Part shown: positions 17,350 through 27,367 of the stretch, in pieces
Layout of the letters: each line of letters begins with the position of its first letter
Numbering within the stretch: the stretch's first letter is position 1
From: Phycisphaerae bacterium
GTDB taxonomy: Bacteria > Planctomycetota > Phycisphaerae > Sedimentisphaerales > Anaerohalosphaeraceae
Assembly: GCA_018052735.1 (NCBI GenBank)
Contig: JAGPMT010000014.1
Coordinates: forward strand, 1 to 56,766
Length of the DNA: 56,766 nt
Reading direction: 5' to 3'
The notes under the pieces: model-generated
What the model was told of the DNA's origin: nothing
Database searches by the model: none
The model's input: the letters and a program-made list of their open reading frames with translations, nothing else
Program-made: the position numbers and the translations under genes

Positions 17350-19632
17350 CTAAAATACTGCCTCTTCCGTATCCGTTTTTGTGGACAGATCGGTTACGGG
17401 AGGGAGTAATGTTCTACTGACCTCATTGACAAAAGAAGACCATCTGGGACGGTTTTCAATCTGGATAGACGATATCTGCTTCAAAGCAGCCAATCTGGAA
17501 TCAATTTCTATGGATTCATCAGAAAAATAATCCTTCAAAACCAAAATATAAGGTGAAGTCCGGCTGATATCGGAACGAATCAGCTTGTTCTGGATATATT
17601 GAATCGCCTTATCATGTAGGCCGGCATATAAGCATATTTTTAGTATCTGATTATTCGTTTCTTCCGAAAAACCATTCTCTGCGGCAGAGTAGTTGATTTT
17701 TGTCAGATAACTGCCGCCTTGCTCCCACATTTTCTGCTCAGCTATCCAAGAAATGGATGCCTGCTGAATTTTTAATAGAAGTTCAGAATCTTTTTCTGCG
17801 GCCGCTTTTTGTTCGGCCATATCCATAATCTCGCGAACATAACTGATAGTCAAACCCTCCGCGGCTTTAATTGAACCTGCCCACTCCAGCAAAAAGGCAG
17901 CTGATTGACGCTGGCAGATAGAGCGGATAGCCAGCCAAACCTGTTCGCTGTAGCCATTGCCGGACAGCATTTTCAAAAGCCACTCCAAATCCGCACCTTG
18001 GCCTGTCTGTCCGGCCAAATCAATAACAATCTGCCGAACTGCAATGCTTTCATCCAGCATCAGCTGATTTTGCCTGAATAATTCAAGGGCTTTGACCTTA
18101 TCGATATAGACAAGCCCTTGTGCTGCGGCTAAACGCAAACCGGGATTATCTGTAACCTTCAAGGCCTCTTTAAATAACGGTTCATATAGGACGCGAGCCG
18201 CTTCTTTTGAACCGCCTTGCCCGCAAAGACGGGCCAAAATAGCCAATAAATTTGCCCGTAAAGCCGAACTTTGTAAAGCAGAGCGATTATAGCGATCCTT
18301 AAGAGCTGTCAAATAGGACTGCAATGATTCTGGAGGCAAGTTATTTAATTCCAATATCTTACCGATAACAGTCGCTCCCTTTTCAGCCGCATCCGCCGCA
18401 TCCTGATTAAGATATTCAGTGGCAATGGCCAGTGTGCGGGTCTTTATTTCCGGCGACAATTCTATTTGTGAATTGCTCGAAAAAGCAAAAAACACCGCTT
18501 CCCCCAGCGCTCCAAACATTGCCAGCGCTACTTCCGGGTCTTTTTCCTGACTAAAACGTTCCAGCAATCTTGCCGCAGGATTCAGCACACTCATATTCAT
18601 CAGAGCTTTGGCTGTCTGCAAGCGTACGTCTCGCGAAGAATCCGATAAAAAAGAAAACAGTTTTTCGCGAAGCTTTTCGTTGGTGCCGATTGGGTATTTG
18701 GTCAGCTTATCCAGTGCCCACAGCCGAATGGGCGCCAAATCCGAATCCATCAATTCCAGCAGCATTTTGCCCCGCCCGGCCTCATCCAGAGTCTCGTACT
18801 GCTTATCCAGCGATCCTATATAGAGCTTTTGCCAGCGGGCACTTTCAGCCTGCACTTCCCGCAGCTTCATTTCCTGACGAAGCAGACGTTCGCGTCTTAT
18901 ATCTTCGGGACTTTTTCGCTGAAGCTCACTTAAAATATCAGCCCAAACCGACCGGCTGGTGCCAACCGGGATGCCAAATGCCTCTTGTAGGGCCGTTTCG
19001 GCTGATTTTGCTATGTCGGCATCTGGATTATCCAGAAGTCCGATTAAGCTGCGCAAAGCAAGCGGTTCGGGCCGGACCTGCAGAGCATATATGGCATTGC
19101 CTCGAATCTGTGTGCTAAGTTCTTTATTATCAAGGAGCTGCCTGATTGGTCCTGCGATTTCAGCATAATCGAAAAGCAGCATCGCCTCCGCAGCTAATTC
19201 CGCCTGTTCAGGCGACTTGCCCTGCAAAATTCCGATCAGCGGCTCGAGGAATATCTCTTTGGCACTGATGGTCTGGCTCAATCCGCGGCTTTTAATCAAT
19301 GCCTTGCATACGGACTGACGGGCAAGAGGATTTTCTTCTGCTTTCAAGGCAGAGACAAGAACTTCTCGGCTTTGTGCATTATTTTGAAGAAGCAGGCCAA
19401 CAGCAGCATCCACACGGACATCTTCTGTGCTGCCCTGAAACAGAGTTTCGCGGTAAATCCGCAATTGTCGAGCGGACGCCTCTTCTGTCTCTAGTGGAAT
19501 GGTTGGGGTGGATACACTAACAGACAGCTCTTCCTGACCCTGTACAGATGACGACAGGGACAGAATATAAACGAACAGGATGAAAAACCATACACTCCTG
19601 GGGTTCACGGGCACTCCATAACGCACTTTCAT
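17350..19632 (-). CDS. Secreted HEAT-repeat protein of unknown function
   Basis: About 760 residues with an N-terminal signal peptide (hydrophobic WFFILFVYILSLSSS core, likely cleavage after VQG) and then an almost wholly alpha-helical array. HEAT-like units are recognisable, for example around DVRVDAAVGLLLQNN, DADIAKSAETALQEAFG and SSRDVRLQTAKALMNMSVLN. Such arrays bind proteins or form scaffolds; no catalytic motif was seen and no function should be assumed. I set the start at ATG 19632; an in-frame GTG at 19608 with GGAG five bases upstream is an equally good candidate and keeps the signal peptide. The gene is single, divergent from pgpA, and lies upstream of the tRNA-Thr/tuf promoter. Confidence 0.8.
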   Translation of the reverse strand: MKVRYGVPVNPRSVWFFILFVYILSLSSSVQGQEELSVSVSTPTIPLETEEASARQLRIYRETLFQGSTEDVRVDAAVGLLLQNNAQSREVLVSALKAEENPLARQSVCKALIKSRGLSQTISAKEIFLEPLIGILQGKSPEQAELAAEAMLLFDYAEIAGPIRQLLDNKELSTQIRGNAIYALQVRPEPLALRSLIGLLDNPDADIAKSAETALQEAFGIPVGTSRSVWADILSELQRKSPEDIRRERLLRQEMKLREVQAESARWQKLYIGSLDKQYETLDEAGRGKMLLELMDSDLAPIRLWALDKLTKYPIGTNEKLREKLFSFLSDSSRDVRLQTAKALMNMSVLNPAARLLERFSQEKDPEVALAMFGALGEAVFFAFSSNSQIELSPEIKTRTLAIATEYLNQDAADAAEKGATVIGKILELNNLPPESLQSYLTALKDRYNRSALQSSALRANLLAILARLCGQGGSKEAARVLYEPLFKEALKVTDNPGLRLAAAQGLVYIDKVKALELFRQNQLMLDESIAVRQIVIDLAGQTGQGADLEWLLKMLSGNGYSEQVWLAIRSICQRQSAAFLLEWAGSIKAAEGLTISYVREIMDMAEQKAAAEKDSELLLKIQQASISWIAEQKMWEQGGSYLTKINYSAAENGFSEETNNQILKICLYAGLHDKAIQYIQNKLIRSDISRTSPYILVLKDYFSDESIEIDSRLAALKQISSIQIENRPRWSSFVNEVSRTLLPPVTDLSTKTDTEEAVF

Positions 19633-19678
19633 ACCTGCAGGACAATTCAATGGTTACTATTTCGGCAATTTTGTGCTT

Positions 19679-19852: not shown

Positions 19853-20338
19853 ATGACAAAAGAAGAATTGCTGACAACAGTTTTTGGGCTTGGCAAGCTG
19901 CCTGCAGCGCCGGGAACGTTTGGTTCACTGGCGTCGGTATTGTTATACCTCCTTTTGGGATACGTGTATCCTTCCGCCAATTGGTATGTTATGGCATTAC
20001 TGGCTGCATTGGGAACATGGGTATGCATAGAGTATGGGCCACGAATGACAGCAATAACAGGAAAAAAAGACCCGCCGGAAGTCGTAGCAGATGAGGCGGC
20101 CGGGCAAGCATTAGTGATGCTGGCAATTACTCTATTGAATCCGGCAAAAATCTGTAACGCAGGCGTTGCAGGATTCGTTCTGTTTCGGCTGTTTGATATT
20201 TTCAAGCCCTTTCCTTGCAAACAGTTAGAAAAACTTAAAGGGGGGTATGGGATTTTGGCCGACGACCTGATGGCCGCAGTATATGCAGCGGCTGTGTTTA
20301 TCGTTTTACGCCGTTTTCTGCCTGCCTTTTTCGGATAA
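19853..20338 (+). CDS. pgpA: Phosphatidylglycerophosphatase A
   Basis: PgpA removes phosphate from phosphatidylglycerophosphate to give phosphatidylglycerol in the inner membrane. The 161-residue protein has the family hallmarks: GLGKLPAAPGTFGSLASV near residues 12-29, PPEVVADEAAGQAL near 74-87 and FRLFDIFKPFP near 109. Four membrane segments are predicted. The Asp in VVADEAAG and the Asp in FDIFKP correspond to conserved acidic residues of the family. It is preceded by AT-rich leader and followed by a terminator-like hairpin. Other phospholipid genes (cdsA, psd, pssA) are elsewhere in the window. Confidence 0.93.
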   Translation: MTKEELLTTVFGLGKLPAAPGTFGSLASVLLYLLLGYVYPSANWYVMALLAALGTWVCIEYGPRMTAITGKKDPPEVVADEAAGQALVMLAITLLNPAKICNAGVAGFVLFRLFDIFKPFPCKQLEKLKGGYGILADDLMAAVYAAAVFIVLRRFLPAFFG

Positions 20339-20422: not shown

Positions 20423-22954
20423 ATGGAGCACTCAATGGCTTGCGATTACTCGATTCAGGTTTGCCGTCAGCTTGAGGCCGCCTTTCAAAAGTGCAGCTTA
20501 TACCGTCCGATGCGGATCGCACATTATGATGCTGGGACGGTTTTATGCTATGACCTCAATCCAATTGAACCGGGGCCGGTCATTCAGGTGCGCTTGTGTG
20601 TTGAAAGATTCGTCGGGGGCGGTTTTGCCGGTCAGGTTTATAAAGTCCATCTGGATGACATTTGTGCAGATGGAAAATCTGTGGATCGTGCCGCTGCACT
20701 GGTGCGGGGAAAAAGTTATGCGTTAAAAATATTAATTCCTCCTTCTGCAGGGTCGCGTTTTTTCAGGAATTTTTTATATGCTGTCGGTTTTCAAGGCCCA
20801 TTTCAACTGCAGGTCAATCCCGCAGCAGCCAGAGCCGGGGCACTATGGCAGAAATTGATCCGTGCTGCTGCCCAGATTCGATTTAATGACCCCCTTTGCG
20901 TCAATGACATCCACGGCACCTTTGTTGATTCAGAATTAGGCAGCTGCGGCGAAATCAGCGATTGGATTGACGGCCGGACATGGCGGCTGGAGGTAGACGA
21001 CCATCTGGACCAGCTGAATCGATGGAAAAAAGGCAAATCCGTCGATTTAACTGTTCTGGGCTCTCCTGAATACCGCTCTAAATATATGTTTATGACGGAG
21101 TTTGTTAAACTGCTGCACGAGATTGGCGCTTACGAGTTTGCCCGGCAGTACGAATGGACGACCTGTAAAAGCCAGCCCAATGTCCTGAAACGAATCGATA
21201 CAAATGCCGAGCCCAGCAAGGGCTTGACCGCCGTTGATTTTCGGGCGGGATTGACGCTGCTTGCCGTTGGGCCAATGAGTCCGGGGGATTTCAAGCTGAT
21301 TTGGCAGGGAATCAAACGCGGCTCGCTGGTTCAATTTGACAGGGGAAATATAAAAAAACTCGAGGATTATATTTCCCAGCATCCCGACCTGAAAAATGTT
21401 CTGCCGAATGCAGAAAAATTGCTTTGTGAATTAAAGCAATGCGAGTCAATTTATCGGGATTCAATTCCGGACATCACGCATAATCATTTTCGCCTGCTGT
21501 ATGACAGGCGGCTTTGGGGACAGATATTAGACAGCGCGGTTACGGGGTGGAAAACGCAAAATCTTATTGATGCTGAAGATATTTTCAGAAACTCTCCTCT
21601 AAAAACCATTGTCTTTCTCCTGCTCGGCCTGATTCCTTTTATTGGCAAACTATGCCGCCGGCTTTGGGCAAAAGCAGACTGGCGAAAGCATTATAAGAGT
21701 TTGTTGACCGACTGCAGCTATTTTTATCGGTCTGTTAAAGGCCGCATGGCTGAAATGCTAATCCAGTGGCATAGAAGCGGGCGATTGGGTGAAGACAATG
21801 CGATTGCTGTTTTCAACTCCCCCGTTCTTTTTCTGCTGCACCTGCCGCTGTCGGTCCTGCCGGCCGGTCTCCATCGGTTAATAACCGATCCAAAAGTACT
21901 TCAAAATAAACTGCATTTTGTATTTGTGCGGCCGATTCAGCTGTATTTCAATGCCTCTCTGCGTGAACAATGGCTGCGGGATATGGTTCGGCAGGGGCAG
22001 AAGAAGCATATTTTAAGCGATGAGGATGCTTCAACGATTCTCTCACAACTTAACGAACCTTTTATACAAAAATATCTGATCAGTTTAGTAGTCCATTTAA
22101 TGACGCTGCCGGTTACCCAGATTGTCTCGGTTGCGGTAGCTGCCCTGTTTTACTGGACTCACCCCAATATGCCCGATGCTGAAAGAGCAGCCGCTGTTGC
22201 GGGAATTTTGGTCCTGTTCCAAGTGATTCCCATTTCACCCGGTTCATTCTGCCGCGGTCTTTATACAACGGTTATTGCAATACGGGACAGGAATTTCAAA
22301 GACTACAATATCGCTCTTTTTTTAAGCTATTTTAAGTATGTAGGATACTTGGCCTTCCCCATACAAATGACTTATCGCTATCCTGCGCTGGCCCGATTTA
22401 TGGCAGCCCATTGGGCTACCGACGCGGTTCATATTGTCCCGGTTTTTGGAGAGCGCGGGGCCTTGCTGGAACACTGGATCTTTTGTCTTTTCTACAACTG
22501 GCCGCTGACCATACGCCGCCGGATGCGCTGCATCAGCGAAATACGCCGCTCGTTGCCGGTTCGGTTGTGGCATATCATTCCCTGTGTACTTTTGGCTGTT
22601 TATGTGTTGAGTGCTGCTCACTATGGATACTGCAAAACCGGCAGGGTACCTGAAAAAGACAATCTCTGGTTTATTAAGCCTCTTTTCTGCCTGATTGTTT
22701 TTATTCCGTTAGCAGTCGGATGGGCTGTAAGCCGTTTTGCCGGCGGATTGGCACGGGGCAAGCGTATTCTGTCGGCAGCATCGGCAGGCCTTCTAACCGG
22801 CATTGGCTATTCTATCGCTGCATGGGCACTGGAACAGAATTGGAATATCGAAACAGAGGTGCTTGTTCCGCTGATTTGGCGGGGATTTGCACTTTCGATT
22901 TTCAGCGTCATCGGGGCGATTTTGGCTGAAATCAGCCAGAAAGAAACCCAATAA
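20423..22954 (+). CDS. Large membrane protein with kinase-like N-terminal domain, function unknown
   Basis: I do not recognise a characterised family for this 843-residue protein. Residues 62-75 (RFVGGGFAGQVYKV) resemble a protein-kinase glycine loop and YALKIL (99-104) the following lysine strand. QPNVLKR (251-257) and LTAVDFRAG (268-276) sit where an ABC1/UbiB- or Rio-type catalytic loop and DFG motif would be, but the position of the catalytic Asp appears to be Cys, so it may be a pseudokinase. From about 393 on there are roughly ten hydrophobic segments (near 394-411, 462-482, 552-578, 590-620, 630-648, 681-692, 716-733, 749-771, 782-802 and 813-834) and a conserved-looking IPISPGSFCRG at 602-611. 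The start could also be ATG 20435. It stands alone after a terminator-like hairpin. Confidence 0.75.
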   Translation: MEHSMACDYSIQVCRQLEAAFQKCSLYRPMRIAHYDAGTVLCYDLNPIEPGPVIQVRLCVERFVGGGFAGQVYKVHLDDICADGKSVDRAAALVRGKSYALKILIPPSAGSRFFRNFLYAVGFQGPFQLQVNPAAARAGALWQKLIRAAAQIRFNDPLCVNDIHGTFVDSELGSCGEISDWIDGRTWRLEVDDHLDQLNRWKKGKSVDLTVLGSPEYRSKYMFMTEFVKLLHEIGAYEFARQYEWTTCKSQPNVLKRIDTNAEPSKGLTAVDFRAGLTLLAVGPMSPGDFKLIWQGIKRGSLVQFDRGNIKKLEDYISQHPDLKNVLPNAEKLLCELKQCESIYRDSIPDITHNHFRLLYDRRLWGQILDSAVTGWKTQNLIDAEDIFRNSPLKTIVFLLLGLIPFIGKLCRRLWAKADWRKHYKSLLTDCSYFYRSVKGRMAEMLIQWHRSGRLGEDNAIAVFNSPVLFLLHLPLSVLPAGLHRLITDPKVLQNKLHFVFVRPIQLYFNASLREQWLRDMVRQGQKKHILSDEDASTILSQLNEPFIQKYLISLVVHLMTLPVTQIVSVAVAALFYWTHPNMPDAERAAAVAGILVLFQVIPISPGSFCRGLYTTVIAIRDRNFKDYNIALFLSYFKYVGYLAFPIQMTYRYPALARFMAAHWATDAVHIVPVFGERGALLEHWIFCLFYNWPLTIRRRMRCISEIRRSLPVRLWHIIPCVLLAVYVLSAAHYGYCKTGRVPEKDNLWFIKPLFCLIVFIPLAVGWAVSRFAGGLARGKRILSAASAGLLTGIGYSIAAWALEQNWNIETEVLVPLIWRGFALSIFSVIGAILAEISQKETQ

Positions 22955-23105: not shown

Positions 23106-23858
23106 ATGGCAAACAGTTTCGGGTCGTTTTGTGACGGCCTGTTTTTGGAATTATGTGTGACAACCCAGCTGGAACTTCCTTCCAGCCGGGAGACCATTCT
23201 TGCGTTTTTTGAGCGGCTTCAGAGACTGCACCCAGAAATGAACAATTTTTCGCGTCGCGACGGCGGCGAATATGTTCTGGAGCAGGAGTCTCAAGGGCAG
23301 CGTATCCAGTGGGTTGGGCTGGAAGCAGACCGTATCACCGCCGGCTGTGCAGATCCGGATTCGCTCGAACAGGCCTATGCCCTGCACACCCAAGTGCTGG
23401 AGCTGATTCCCTATATGCTGGGTGTCAGTCCGCTGGATATCGATTCACTGGATATTACATTCGGACTGGATTTTGATTATCAGGGCAACCATGATGAGGT
23501 TATCGCTGCAGCGCTGCTGAATACCTCCAGCTTCGGGACGCTGTTTGAAATGCCCCAGGTCCGGGCCATAAGCTGCTGTCCATCTGTTATCATTGCCCTG
23601 TCGGACGACTGCCGGCTGCAGGCCCGTGTGGCAATTGAATCCCGAACGACCGCCTACGATGTGCGCAGCGAGAAGTATAAATCCGATGAACCCATCAGTC
23701 TTTACTTTTCCGTGCGCCGGTATCCGCTTTCGTCGCCTCCGTTTGACACACTGGCGTCGTTTCGGGAACAGTGCCGGATTGCTGAAAACCTGATGTTTGA
23801 CAAAATCATTCCGCATTTTGTTCAGCCGCTTAATAATGCAATTGCTCAACGACGCTGA
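23106..23858 (+). CDS. Conserved-looking hypothetical protein, 250 residues
   Basis: I do not recognise this protein. It is soluble, acidic, with no signal peptide or membrane segment, and has alternating strand and helix character (WVGLEADRITAGC, DIDSLDITFGLDFDYQGNHDE, LQARVAIESRTTAYDVRSE, PISLYFSVRRYPL). The ATG at 23106 is fixed by AGGAG eight bases upstream; a longer frame from TTG 23052 has no ribosome site and overlaps the possible promoter. It is followed 22 bases later by a small membrane protein on the same strand, so the two probably form a unit. Composition and codon use match neighbouring genes, so it is a real gene rather than a chance frame. Confidence 0.8.
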   Translation: MANSFGSFCDGLFLELCVTTQLELPSSRETILAFFERLQRLHPEMNNFSRRDGGEYVLEQESQGQRIQWVGLEADRITAGCADPDSLEQAYALHTQVLELIPYMLGVSPLDIDSLDITFGLDFDYQGNHDEVIAAALLNTSSFGTLFEMPQVRAISCCPSVIIALSDDCRLQARVAIESRTTAYDVRSEKYKSDEPISLYFSVRRYPLSSPPFDTLASFREQCRIAENLMFDKIIPHFVQPLNNAIAQRR

Positions 23859-23880: not shown

Positions 23881-24336
23881 ATGGCTGTAGAAGCACCTCT
23901 AAGCCGCTACAAAAAGAACAATCTGCTGATTATGACTGCGCTGCTGATAGGACTGGGCATCTGGTTTTATTATGACGGATACCACAATGCTGCTTTTATC
24001 GCCAAGCATACCCAGCAGGACGGCTCGCCGGACAGCACGCTGAATTTCAACCGCAAAGCTCCGCCGTTTATAGTTGGCGGAGGCATTGTGCTGGCCATTT
24101 ATCTGGCAGCCATTCGAGGCAGAAAAATCATAGCCGATGACACCGCGCTTCGCTGCGGCCGTCTAAGCATCGCTTATGATGCAATAGAACAAATCAATAA
24201 AACCCATTTTTCTTCCAAAGGTTTTTTTGTGATAACCTACAACGACCAAGGTCAGCGTCGCCAGTTAAAACTCAGCGACCGCATGTACGACAATTTGCCT
24301 GCGGTATTGGATTATATTGCAGCCAAAATCCAATAA
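23881..24336 (+). CDS. Small membrane protein with PH-like cytoplasmic domain
   Basis: About 151 residues. Two hydrophobic segments lie near residues 15-31 (LLIMTALLIGLGIWFYY) and 62-78 (PFIVGGGIVLAIYLAAI), separated by a polar loop. The C-terminal half (IADDTALRCGRLSIAYDAIEQINK, then FFVITYND and LKLSDRMYDNLPAVLDYI) has the strand order and DDTALRCG-type opening of bacterial PH-like domains, in which the first strand follows the last membrane helix. That domain call is inference. The start is placed at ATG 23881, with GGAGG ten bases upstream; ATG 23863 is an alternative. The function is unknown. Confidence 0.7.
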   Translation: MAVEAPLSRYKKNNLLIMTALLIGLGIWFYYDGYHNAAFIAKHTQQDGSPDSTLNFNRKAPPFIVGGGIVLAIYLAAIRGRKIIADDTALRCGRLSIAYDAIEQINKTHFSSKGFFVITYNDQGQRRQLKLSDRMYDNLPAVLDYIAAKIQ

Positions 24337-24441: not shown

Positions 24442-25728
24442 ATGAATTGCTGTGTGGTGGGGTTGCAGTGGGGCGATGAAGGCAAAGGCAAAGTCGTCGA
24501 TATTCTGGCCCAAAATGCAGATATCGTCGTTCGCTATGGCGGCGGGGCCAATGCGGGGCATACTGTTATTATCGGGGATACCAAATTTGCCCTCCATCTG
24601 ATGCCGTCCGGTGCCGTGCGGGAGAAAACCGCCTGTGTTATTGCCAACGGAGTTGTTGTTGACCCGGGGGTGCTTATCGATGAAATCAACGGGCTCAAAG
24701 CCCAGCACATTCATATGGAAGGACGGCTTTTTATCAGCGAAAATGCCCACATTGTTCTGGACTATCACAAGCTTGAAGACCAGCTTCGCGAAGCGGCTAT
24801 GGGCAAAAATAAAATCGGTACAACCGCCCGGGGCATTGGTCCCTGCTATGCCGACAAAGTGGGACGCGTTTATGCGCTGCGGATGGCTGACCTGTGCCGG
24901 CCCGATACGGTATTGAAAAACAAACTGCAGACTATTATCGACCATAAAAACAAGCTGTTTGGAGCACTTTACGGGGCTGAACCGCTGGCGTTTGATGCCA
25001 TTTATGAAAAATGTCTTCATTACAGCAGCGTTCTCAAACCGTTTATCTGCAACACCACACGCTATCTGCACGAGGCACTGGACGCCGGCCGGAATATTCT
25101 TTTTGAAGGCGCACAGGGAGCGCTGCTGGATTTGGACCACGGAACATTTCCCTTTGTTACCAGTTCCAATGCCAGCGCTCTGGGGCTGGGGCCGGGAAGC
25201 GGCGTTCCGGCTTCACGGGTAGACCGGTTTATCGGTGTGGTCAAGGCCTATGCTACACGCGTCGGGGCAGGGCCTTTCCCAACGGAGCAGGACAACGAAA
25301 TCGGCAGCCGCATCCGTGAAAAAGGGCATGAATACGGCACGACCACCGGACGCCCGCGGCGCTGCGGATGGTTTGATGCAGTCGCCGTACGCTATACCGT
25401 CAAGCTGGGCGGCGTCAGCGAGATCGCAATGATGCATCTGGATACTTTGGCCGGAATGAGGGAAATCAAGCTGTGCAGAGCCTACAAAATCGGCGGAAAG
25501 GAAACCACTTTTTTCCCCGCCAGCGTCGAGGAACTGGCCGAAGCTGAATGCATCTACCAAACGCTGGACGGCTGGAATGAGGACTTGTCAACTATTCGTG
25601 AGTATGAAGCGCTGCCTCAGCCGGTCAAAGATTATATAAAAGCGGTTGAGTCCATTGTCGGTGTCCCCGTTACGATGGTGGGTGTGGGGCCCAAACGAAG
25701 TCAGGCCATCTTCAGAAATCCGGTATGA
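24442..25728 (+). CDS. purA: Adenylosuccinate synthetase
   Basis: PurA joins IMP and aspartate with GTP hydrolysis to make adenylosuccinate, the first committed step to AMP. The protein is 428 residues, the normal size. GLQWGDEGKGKVVD (residues 8-21) is the IMP/GTP-binding loop, GGANAGHTV follows near 34, GTTARGIGPCYADK lies near 128, and TTTGRPRRCGWFD is near 300. The ATG has AAGGAG upstream. Its TGA overlaps the uppS start (ATGA), starting a tightly packed run that leads into cdsA, phoH and ybeY. Confidence 0.97.
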   Translation: MNCCVVGLQWGDEGKGKVVDILAQNADIVVRYGGGANAGHTVIIGDTKFALHLMPSGAVREKTACVIANGVVVDPGVLIDEINGLKAQHIHMEGRLFISENAHIVLDYHKLEDQLREAAMGKNKIGTTARGIGPCYADKVGRVYALRMADLCRPDTVLKNKLQTIIDHKNKLFGALYGAEPLAFDAIYEKCLHYSSVLKPFICNTTRYLHEALDAGRNILFEGAQGALLDLDHGTFPFVTSSNASALGLGPGSGVPASRVDRFIGVVKAYATRVGAGPFPTEQDNEIGSRIREKGHEYGTTTGRPRRCGWFDAVAVRYTVKLGGVSEIAMMHLDTLAGMREIKLCRAYKIGGKETTFFPASVEELAEAECIYQTLDGWNEDLSTIREYEALPQPVKDYIKAVESIVGVPVTMVGVGPKRSQAIFRNPV

Positions 25729-26513
25729 AGGATCATCAAACGGTTGAAGAGAAACGCAAGCAGACAGCACAGCGGCTGGGCATCCATCCGGATGCTGTAC
25801 CCCGCCATATCGCCATCATCATGGACGGCAACGGGCGGTGGGCACTGAAACGGGGACTGCCGCGGTATCGCGGACACGAGAAAGGAGCCGAGACTGTAAA
25901 AGTCATTGCCCAGCATTGCGTAGATAGCGGCATTGAATATCTGACGCTGTATTCCTTCAGCATGCAGAACTGGAAGCGTCCTCGCGAGGAAGTGGACTTT
26001 TTGATGTATTTGTATGCGGCTTATCTTGAGGGGATACGGCCCAGTTTGATGGAAAACAATGTGCGTCTGGCGCATCTGGGCCGGCGGGAGCCCCTTCCGC
26101 CAACAGTATTGAAAGCATTGGATGACACCATTGCTGCCACCAGCGCCAATACCGGTATGATTCTGGGCTTGGCACTGAACTACGGCTCACAGGCAGAGAT
26201 TGTCGATGCCGTCCGGTCCTTGGCCCGCAAGGTCAAAGACGGTTCCATTGAGCCGGACTCCATCAATGAACAGGATATCAGCAATCATCTTTACACCGCC
26301 GGATGGAAAGACCCGGATTTGGTAGTGCGTACAAGCGGCGAGCTTCGCATCAGCAATTTTCTGCTGTGGCAGGTCTCGTATGCAGAGTTCTATGTAACCA
26401 GCGCCTACTGGCCGGATTTTACACCTGAAGAGATGAATAAGGCCATCTTGGCTTATGCCGGCCGGCAGCGGCGCTTCGGCGACATCAAGCCGAATTTCTC
26501 GTCACAGGGCTGA
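25725..26513 (+). CDS. uppS: Isoprenyl transferase (undecaprenyl diphosphate synthase type)
   Basis: This cis-prenyltransferase extends farnesyl diphosphate with isopentenyl diphosphate to make the C55 lipid carrier for cell envelope sugars. The 262-residue protein has a catalytic Asp in IIMDGNGRWALKRGLPRYRG (residues 27-46), the YLTLYSFSMQNWKRP segment near 76 and the C-terminal RTSGELRISNFLLWQ and SAYWPDF motifs. A 25-residue N-terminal extension precedes the core. It overlaps purA by four bases and ends two bases before cdsA; this uppS-cdsA pairing is widespread. Confidence 0.96.
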   Translation: MKDHQTVEEKRKQTAQRLGIHPDAVPRHIAIIMDGNGRWALKRGLPRYRGHEKGAETVKVIAQHCVDSGIEYLTLYSFSMQNWKRPREEVDFLMYLYAAYLEGIRPSLMENNVRLAHLGRREPLPPTVLKALDDTIAATSANTGMILGLALNYGSQAEIVDAVRSLARKVKDGSIEPDSINEQDISNHLYTAGWKDPDLVVRTSGELRISNFLLWQVSYAEFYVTSAYWPDFTPEEMNKAILAYAGRQRRFGDIKPNFSSQG

Positions 26514-26515
26514 CT

Positions 26516-27367
26516 ATGCTTAAATATCGACTTATCTTTGGAACAGTGATGACGGTATTTTTCGTGGGCCTGATCCTGTTTGACGGCTGGCTGGACGGTT
26601 CGCTGCTGGAAGCCGTACCAGACAAGCCGGTTCAAGCGCCCTTCTTTACGCTGTTAATTGCCCTCTTGACAATACCGGCACAATTCGAGTTTGGCAATTT
26701 GATAAAAAACACCGGCGCACACCTATTTAAAAGCGTTACAATACCGGCAACAATTCTGCTGGCTTCCGGCTGTTTGTGCTTTCAGTTTATATATTCTTTC
26801 TATGTGCTGGCATTTTCATTTCTGGCACTGTTTATCGTACAAGCGCTGAAATTCGGCACTGAAGGCACGATTCGAAATGTCGGGGCATCTCTTTTTTCGA
26901 TTGCTTATTTAGGACTTCTGTGCTGGTTTATTTTAAGAGTTCGCATTTTATGGGGGCCGGTTGTTTTATTGTTCTTTATTTTTACCGTAAAAGCTTCTGA
27001 TATAGGGGCTTACACGATTGGCCGGCTGTTTGGCAAGCATAAACTCTGTCCCCGCATCAGCCCCGGAAAAACATGGGAGGGCTTGGGCGGAGCAGTTCTG
27101 TTTGGGACCATTGTCTCTATTGGTATTTCTGCGTGTTGTGGTATAATGTCTGTTATGTCAGCGGCAATTTTCGGGGCCGTATTTGGAATTCTGGGCCAGA
27201 TGGGCGATTTGGCCGAATCGATGCTGAAGCGGGATGCCGCCGTCAAGGATTCCTCAGCCAGCGTGCCGGGATTTGGAGGCCTGCTGGATGTCATTGATTC
27301 GCCTTTGGCGACTGCACCGGCGGCACTTTTAACATTCAGTCTTTTGCTTGCGAGCACAGGAAGTTAA
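26516..27367 (+). CDS. cdsA: Phosphatidate cytidylyltransferase
   Basis: CdsA makes CDP-diacylglycerol from phosphatidate and CTP, the precursor used by PssA and by the PgsA/PgpA branch. The 283-residue protein has about seven or eight membrane segments and the C-terminal signature region: SPGKTWEGLGGA near 182, GQMGDLAESMLKRDAAVKDS near 222-241. The family signature usually ends in HGGxxDRxD; here it reads GFGGLLDVIDS, with the His and Arg replaced. The acidic KRDxxxKD core is kept, so activity is still likely. It lies between uppS and phoH. Confidence 0.93.
   Translation: MLKYRLIFGTVMTVFFVGLILFDGWLDGSLLEAVPDKPVQAPFFTLLIALLTIPAQFEFGNLIKNTGAHLFKSVTIPATILLASGCLCFQFIYSFYVLAFSFLALFIVQALKFGTEGTIRNVGASLFSIAYLGLLCWFILRVRILWGPVVLLFFIFTVKASDIGAYTIGRLFGKHKLCPRISPGKTWEGLGGAVLFGTIVSIGISACCGIMSVMSAAIFGAVFGILGQMGDLAESMLKRDAAVKDSSASVPGFGGLLDVIDSPLATAPAALLTFSLLLASTGS

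Follow-up and report, generated by a model that had tools for sequence, protein, structure and literature searches.

The window analysed here is the whole stretch of 56,766 nucleotides (positions 1-56,766, forward strand) of contig JAGPMT010000014.1 from a Phycisphaerae bacterium (GCA_018052735.1). It contains an open reading frame (20423-22954, plus strand) for a protein of 843 amino acids, present once in its genome; this protein and its relatives will henceforth be referred to as kinTM, a label coined here. Its true start is probably Met5, giving a gene at 20435-22954, since a GGAG lies directly before the ATG at 20435 and most named orthologues start with MAxxYS. In its own order, the genes are arranged as HIT-dGTPase-PgpA-[kinTM]-X268-Y179-PurA-UppS-CdsA. 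In the window, the slot that holds kinTM is bordered on the left by pgpA (phosphatidylglycerophosphatase A; 19853-20338, plus strand; PF04608, E 1.7e-39) and on the right by X268 (23106-23858, plus strand), a conserved family without a Pfam match, recognised by synteny, which borders the slot in most genomes with kinTM and most of those with the C55-PP (undecaprenyl diphosphate) phosphatase UppP/BacA. These are followed by Y179 (23881-24336, plus strand), a small conserved membrane protein that has a weak DUF986 match, is also supported by synteny and is always found near PurA, and by downstream genes at 24442-27367 (plus strand) that we take, from their translated sequences, to be purA, uppS (C55-PP synthase) and cdsA, in an order kept in orthologous loci. 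The pgpA-kinTM genes adjoin an open reading frame (17350-19650, minus strand) for a HEAT-repeat protein of 766 residues, the N-terminus of which may form a signal or an anchor.

A kinase-like domain joined to a membrane domain

The preliminary description of this frame pointed to a glycine-rich loop (RFVGGGFAGQVYKV, residues 62-75) and to YALKIL, QPNVLK and VDFRAG motifs in kinase order, all of which are present in the translation. The kinase-like core spans residues ~54-272 (20582-21238, plus strand), with a glycine loop at 65-72, Lys102, a helix at 133-154, a hinge at E177-W181, Asn253 and Asp272. Across 41 full-length orthologues, G65, G67, G70, V72, K102, N253 and D272 were invariant (41/41), and on this conservation the motifs are not a product of chance. 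The position of the HRD Asp, five residues before N253, is occupied by Cys248, as had been suspected; among the 41 orthologues it was C in 27, W in 6, L in 4, A in 2 and M in 2, and never acidic, while the neighbouring K249-S250 were invariant. With the catalytic Asp missing, kinTM would not be a canonical active protein kinase, and the earlier reading as a pseudokinase, or as a domain binding ATP for another purpose, agrees with the retention of the ATP-site residues.

We modelled both the full-length protein and the domain alone with AlphaFold2, using an input of nine sequences. The modelling yielded elements in kinase order (strands 54-67, 70-82 and 98-103; helix 133-154; strands 163-169 and 174-180; helix 215-234; strands 255-257 and 268-270) and a kinase-like N-lobe. 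Mean pLDDT was 63.6 over the full length and 59.9 in the domain-only model; the C-lobe was modelled poorly, and confidence in the membrane parts was low. In Foldseek searches, the best 50 matches of the full model were all kinases or pseudokinases (E ~0.01-0.1), and those of the domain model (best E 0.002) were kinase folds with few exceptions and took in the pseudokinases VRK3 and ROP5B. The best VIA-align Z was 9.8 for both models, with an rmsd of 4.4 for the full model (159 residues aligned to a kinase) and 3.8 for the domain. These predicted structures support a protein-kinase-like fold for the N-terminal domain; the matches speak for the fold and not for a function.

When kinTM was searched against Pfam, NCBIfam and PDB, singly or as profiles, nothing credible emerged up to E 10, in agreement with the earlier impression that no characterised family matches. 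A kinship with UbiB/ABC1, prompted by the GQVY motif, found no support in any search; there was no Pfam match, and the family was absent from the fold matches listed, which by itself does not speak against such a kinship.

The core membrane domain (residues 393-710; 21599-22552, plus strand) is delimited by conservation tallies, hydropathy and its alignability with a distant clade described below, and is followed by a C-terminal extension (residues 711-843; 22553-22951, plus strand) recognised by comparison of members. Hydropathy over residues 393-835 gives about eight hydrophobic segments, so that the earlier figure of about ten was an overcount. Four lie in the core (393-411, 461-479, 555-573 and 589-607) and four in the extension (711-729, 748-766, 782-800 and 817-835). 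Several kinTM members stop near residue 711 and thus do without the last four; the extension is missing in f52 members, and PgpA stands in its place in f104 members. Two further kinTM proteins (L080:7135-10782 (-) and L081:8485-12150 (+)) are extended at the C-terminus by membrane segments and by a domain that weakly resembles GDSL/SGNH hydrolases (E 0.02 for L080, the one protein scored).

A distant clade from other planctomycetes, clade B (L013, L055-L066 and L071; ~530 residues), combines a kinase-like part with a shorter membrane part. It is related to kinTM by hhalign at E 2e-17 over the whole length and at 1e-6 for the kinase part alone, i.e., both halves are common to the two groups. 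Its motifs are GRGRSGxVF, WQAGxGNPxAxxN and WIDxESG, and the only acidic residue in its aligned catalytic loop is that of a GF[DE]G located four positions ahead of the Trp. Matches to Pkinase (E 0.2) and BMPR1B (E 0.85) are suggestive only, and the PDB profile matches of clade B to designed repeat proteins were rejected as low-complexity matches. The role of clade B may differ from that of kinTM, given that UppP was found in every clade B genome.

Alternation of kinTM and UppP

Of the 198 genomes surveyed in the class, 45 carry a relative of kinTM, as do 13 of the 294 in a sample of the phylum, both sets consisting mostly of MAGs; the named carriers comprise MAGs of Phycisphaerae, Sedimentisphaerales and other planctomycetes. 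Within the order, UppP/BacA fills the slot in genomes without kinTM. Specifically, in 56 scorable loci the space between PgpA and X268/Y179 held kinTM in 30 and UppP in 26 (12 as a separate gene, in one case, L103, on the opposite strand, and 14 fused to PgpA). Fusions of PgpA and UppP are frequent in this order, with single open reading frames at L093:2493-3851, L094:3786-5159, L095:3819-5210, L100:3462-4934 (-), L104:5508-6845 and L105:5412-6881 (-); we found no description of such a fusion in the literature searched. An equal swap with matching flanking genes occurs in f103, where kinTM adjoins PgpA, and in f104, where kinTM is itself fused to PgpA (L073:8783-11368 (+) and L074:9456-12089 (+)), the fusion being the sole PgpA in those two genomes. 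In f108, kinTM sits beside cdsA, away from PgpA, and the genome is still without UppP.

This alternation, a functional link that the preliminary description had missed, extends to whole genomes. In the class (n=198), kinTM was present in 45 genomes, UppP in 138 and both in none (Fisher 6e-32), and in the order (n=98) the numbers were 53, 40 and 1 (p 9e-20), both tests treating genomes as units although they are not independent. The single exception (G520) holds only a remnant of kinTM: a 258-residue open reading frame (L100:4790-5563 (-)) beside a PgpA-UppP fusion, with segments corresponding to residues 428-497 and 736-836 of kinTM and with the kinase domain and conserved core gone. By its sequence, this is a kinTM gene caught after displacement.

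Because of the non-independence of genomes, we built a tree from the neighbouring PurA, UppS and CdsA proteins of 48 loci. It required 13 state changes (14.3 with random labels), 10 of them forced by strongly supported branches, and in independent pairs on the tree UppP switched opposite to kinTM in 10/10; as the rows had been picked for carrying one of the two genes, this pair test adds the number of swaps and not the exclusion itself. Both states were found within seven genera. On this phylogeny, kinTM and UppP have been swapped at least about ten times. Their complementary distribution and shared locus are those expected of functional analogues.

As a control, we considered the other known phosphatase family, PAP2 (PF01569), which was present in 26/45 genomes with kinTM and in 123/153 others (p 0.003), i.e., it is somewhat rarer with kinTM and far from exclusive, a partial avoidance. 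At least one of UppP, PAP2 and kinTM was found in 197 of the 198 class genomes, a number that falls to 178 if kinTM is not counted, where the phosphatase searches covered PF02673 and PF01569. Among the 20 class genomes lacking both UppP and PAP2, 19 had kinTM (p 3e-13), and all 19, including that of the window, encode MraY/WecA-type transferases (PF00953), enzymes that use undecaprenyl phosphate (C55-P).

A proposed role in carrier-lipid recycling

Bacteria that build a conventional cell wall must all reconvert C55-PP to C55-P. We propose that kinTM is a non-homologous replacement of UppP, equipped with an ATP-binding pseudokinase, that would supply C55-P from C55-PP where UppP is missing; as an overall explanation of the gene patterns and conserved residues we give this a probability of about 0.7. 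The safest part of it is the replacement role in carrier-lipid recycling as such, which the distribution makes decidedly likely. A site handling C55-PP may be sought in the membrane core, where P606, G607, S608, R611, P646, Q648, P673, G676, E677, E683 and N692 are invariant and H684 is conserved in 40/41 orthologues; candidate elements are SPGSxxRG (605-612), E677, E683-H684 and N692. The cytosolic N-terminal domain would bind Mg-ATP through its glycine loop, K102, N253 and D272 with no canonical phosphotransfer and, having kept these residues without a catalytic base, could serve to bind or hydrolyse ATP and thereby gate or drive the membrane part (hydrolysis of C55-PP, or flipping of the carrier between leaflets). 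kinTM may be a phosphatase, a flippase or both. That the membrane domain is itself the C55-PP phosphatase we suggest tentatively, at a little under even odds, and we hold it evenly balanced whether kinTM forms a third class of C55-PP recycling enzyme unrelated to the other two, i.e., a membrane phosphatase or flippase coupled to ATP via a pseudokinase and exchanged with UppP many times at one locus. A membrane domain derived from a diverged UppP was rejected (hhalign probability 0.7% or less; no Pfam hit), and Pfam detected no PAP2 signature (PF01569) in kinTM. A function as an undecaprenol or other lipid kinase was ranked low, the catalytic Asp being missing in both clades.

Some observations stand against a replacement. 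Outside the class, kinTM and UppP co-occur (in f52 genomes G056 and G171 and in one f24 genome, G178), and all clade B genomes have UppP as well. There is also a topological difficulty: phosphatases known for C55-PP work on the outer face (PMC4641660), whereas a domain that binds ATP would be cytosolic, and with ATP inside, every version has to assume a coupling across the membrane.

The main rival divides the labour differently, with kinTM as a translocase that would use ATP to bring C55-PP back to the cytoplasmic leaflet and PgpA, acting on both PGP and C55-PP, as the phosphatase. A cytosolic ATP-binding domain suits a translocase, PgpA is the fusion partner of kinTM in f104 and its neighbour in the window's own order and in f103, and PgpA was present in 8/8 UppP-less kinTM genomes tested; that a single enzyme can serve both lipids is indicated by HupA (PMC6748449) and PgpB (PMC7413402). 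Yet adjacency and fusion to PgpA are seen with UppP just as well, PgpA also occurs in UppP genomes, and in f108 and f96 kinTM lies at a distance from PgpA or on a different contig. We consider this division of labour unlikely.

Still less probable is a catalytic kinase-fold domain that would, e.g., take the terminal phosphate off C55-PP and pass it on to water or a nucleotide in a non-canonical way while the membrane part only binds lipid. The invariance of the glycine loop, K102, N253, D272 and K249-S250 would fit such a catalyst, and some kinase folds do carry other chemistries (e.g., SelO and SidJ), but the catalytic position has no acidic residue in either clade and the membrane core is conserved equally. 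Comparably improbable is that kinTM has an unrelated function (e.g., signalling or phospholipid control) and alternates with UppP through allelic replacement at a recombination hotspot, for although most swaps lie at one locus and kinTM stands alongside UppP outside the class, the exclusion is genome-wide, holds where kinTM sits elsewhere (f108), and leaves kinTM in 19/20 genomes without UppP and PAP2 even though all 19 have MraY/WecA-type enzymes.

If the replacement reading is true, the existence of a third, non-homologous enzyme, equipped with a kinase-like domain that binds ATP, would account for the survival of a group of planctomycetes without the known ones, and whether ATP can power or regulate carrier recycling becomes a new question. 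Two families of C55-PP phosphatases have been described, BacA/UppP and PAP2 (PMC4641660, PMC12765074), and in the literature searched, the coverage of which was incomplete, we found neither a third family nor a report on kinTM. As UppP acts as a bacteriocin receptor (PMC12765074), its repeated swapping may, speculatively, reflect selection.

Comparison with known systems

The closest functional parallel is UppP/BacA (PF02673), whose slot kinTM occupies, with which it shares PgpA as a partner in adjacency and fusion and a complementary distribution, and whose role in C55-P supply it would take. By contrast, there is no detectable homology between the two, kinTM has 843 residues against ~270 and a kinase-like domain, and it lacks the SSSGH and PGxSRSG motifs of UppP. 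The PAP2 C55-PP phosphatases (PgpB, YbjG; PF01569) are the other known family for the proposed role, but kinTM has no Pfam match and 26/45 kinTM genomes also hold a PAP2 protein. Proteins of the UbiB/ABC1/COQ8 group are kinase-like ATPases with GQV[HY] beside the glycine loop and a lipid-related role, features that kinTM resembles or may share; unlike them, kinTM has no Pfam match, no catalytic Asp and a large membrane domain. kinTM would work in the lipid cycle of the C55-P translocases DUF368 (PopT) and DedA (UptA) (PMC9876793), but in a comparison of sequences only they do not match kinTM.

The preliminary description knew of no system with this architecture, which stands for the kinTM family itself. 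As a pseudokinase on a membrane protein, however, kinTM has a precedent in mycobacterial MviN, which takes part in peptidoglycan synthesis and carries the pseudokinase ActPs3 (PMC12599244). The likeness lies in a cytosolic pseudokinase carried by a polytopic protein of cell-wall synthesis; the pseudokinase of MviN follows the membrane part, has lost its ATP-binding residues and does not bind ATP (PMC12599244), whereas the kinase-like domain of kinTM is N-terminal and keeps those residues.
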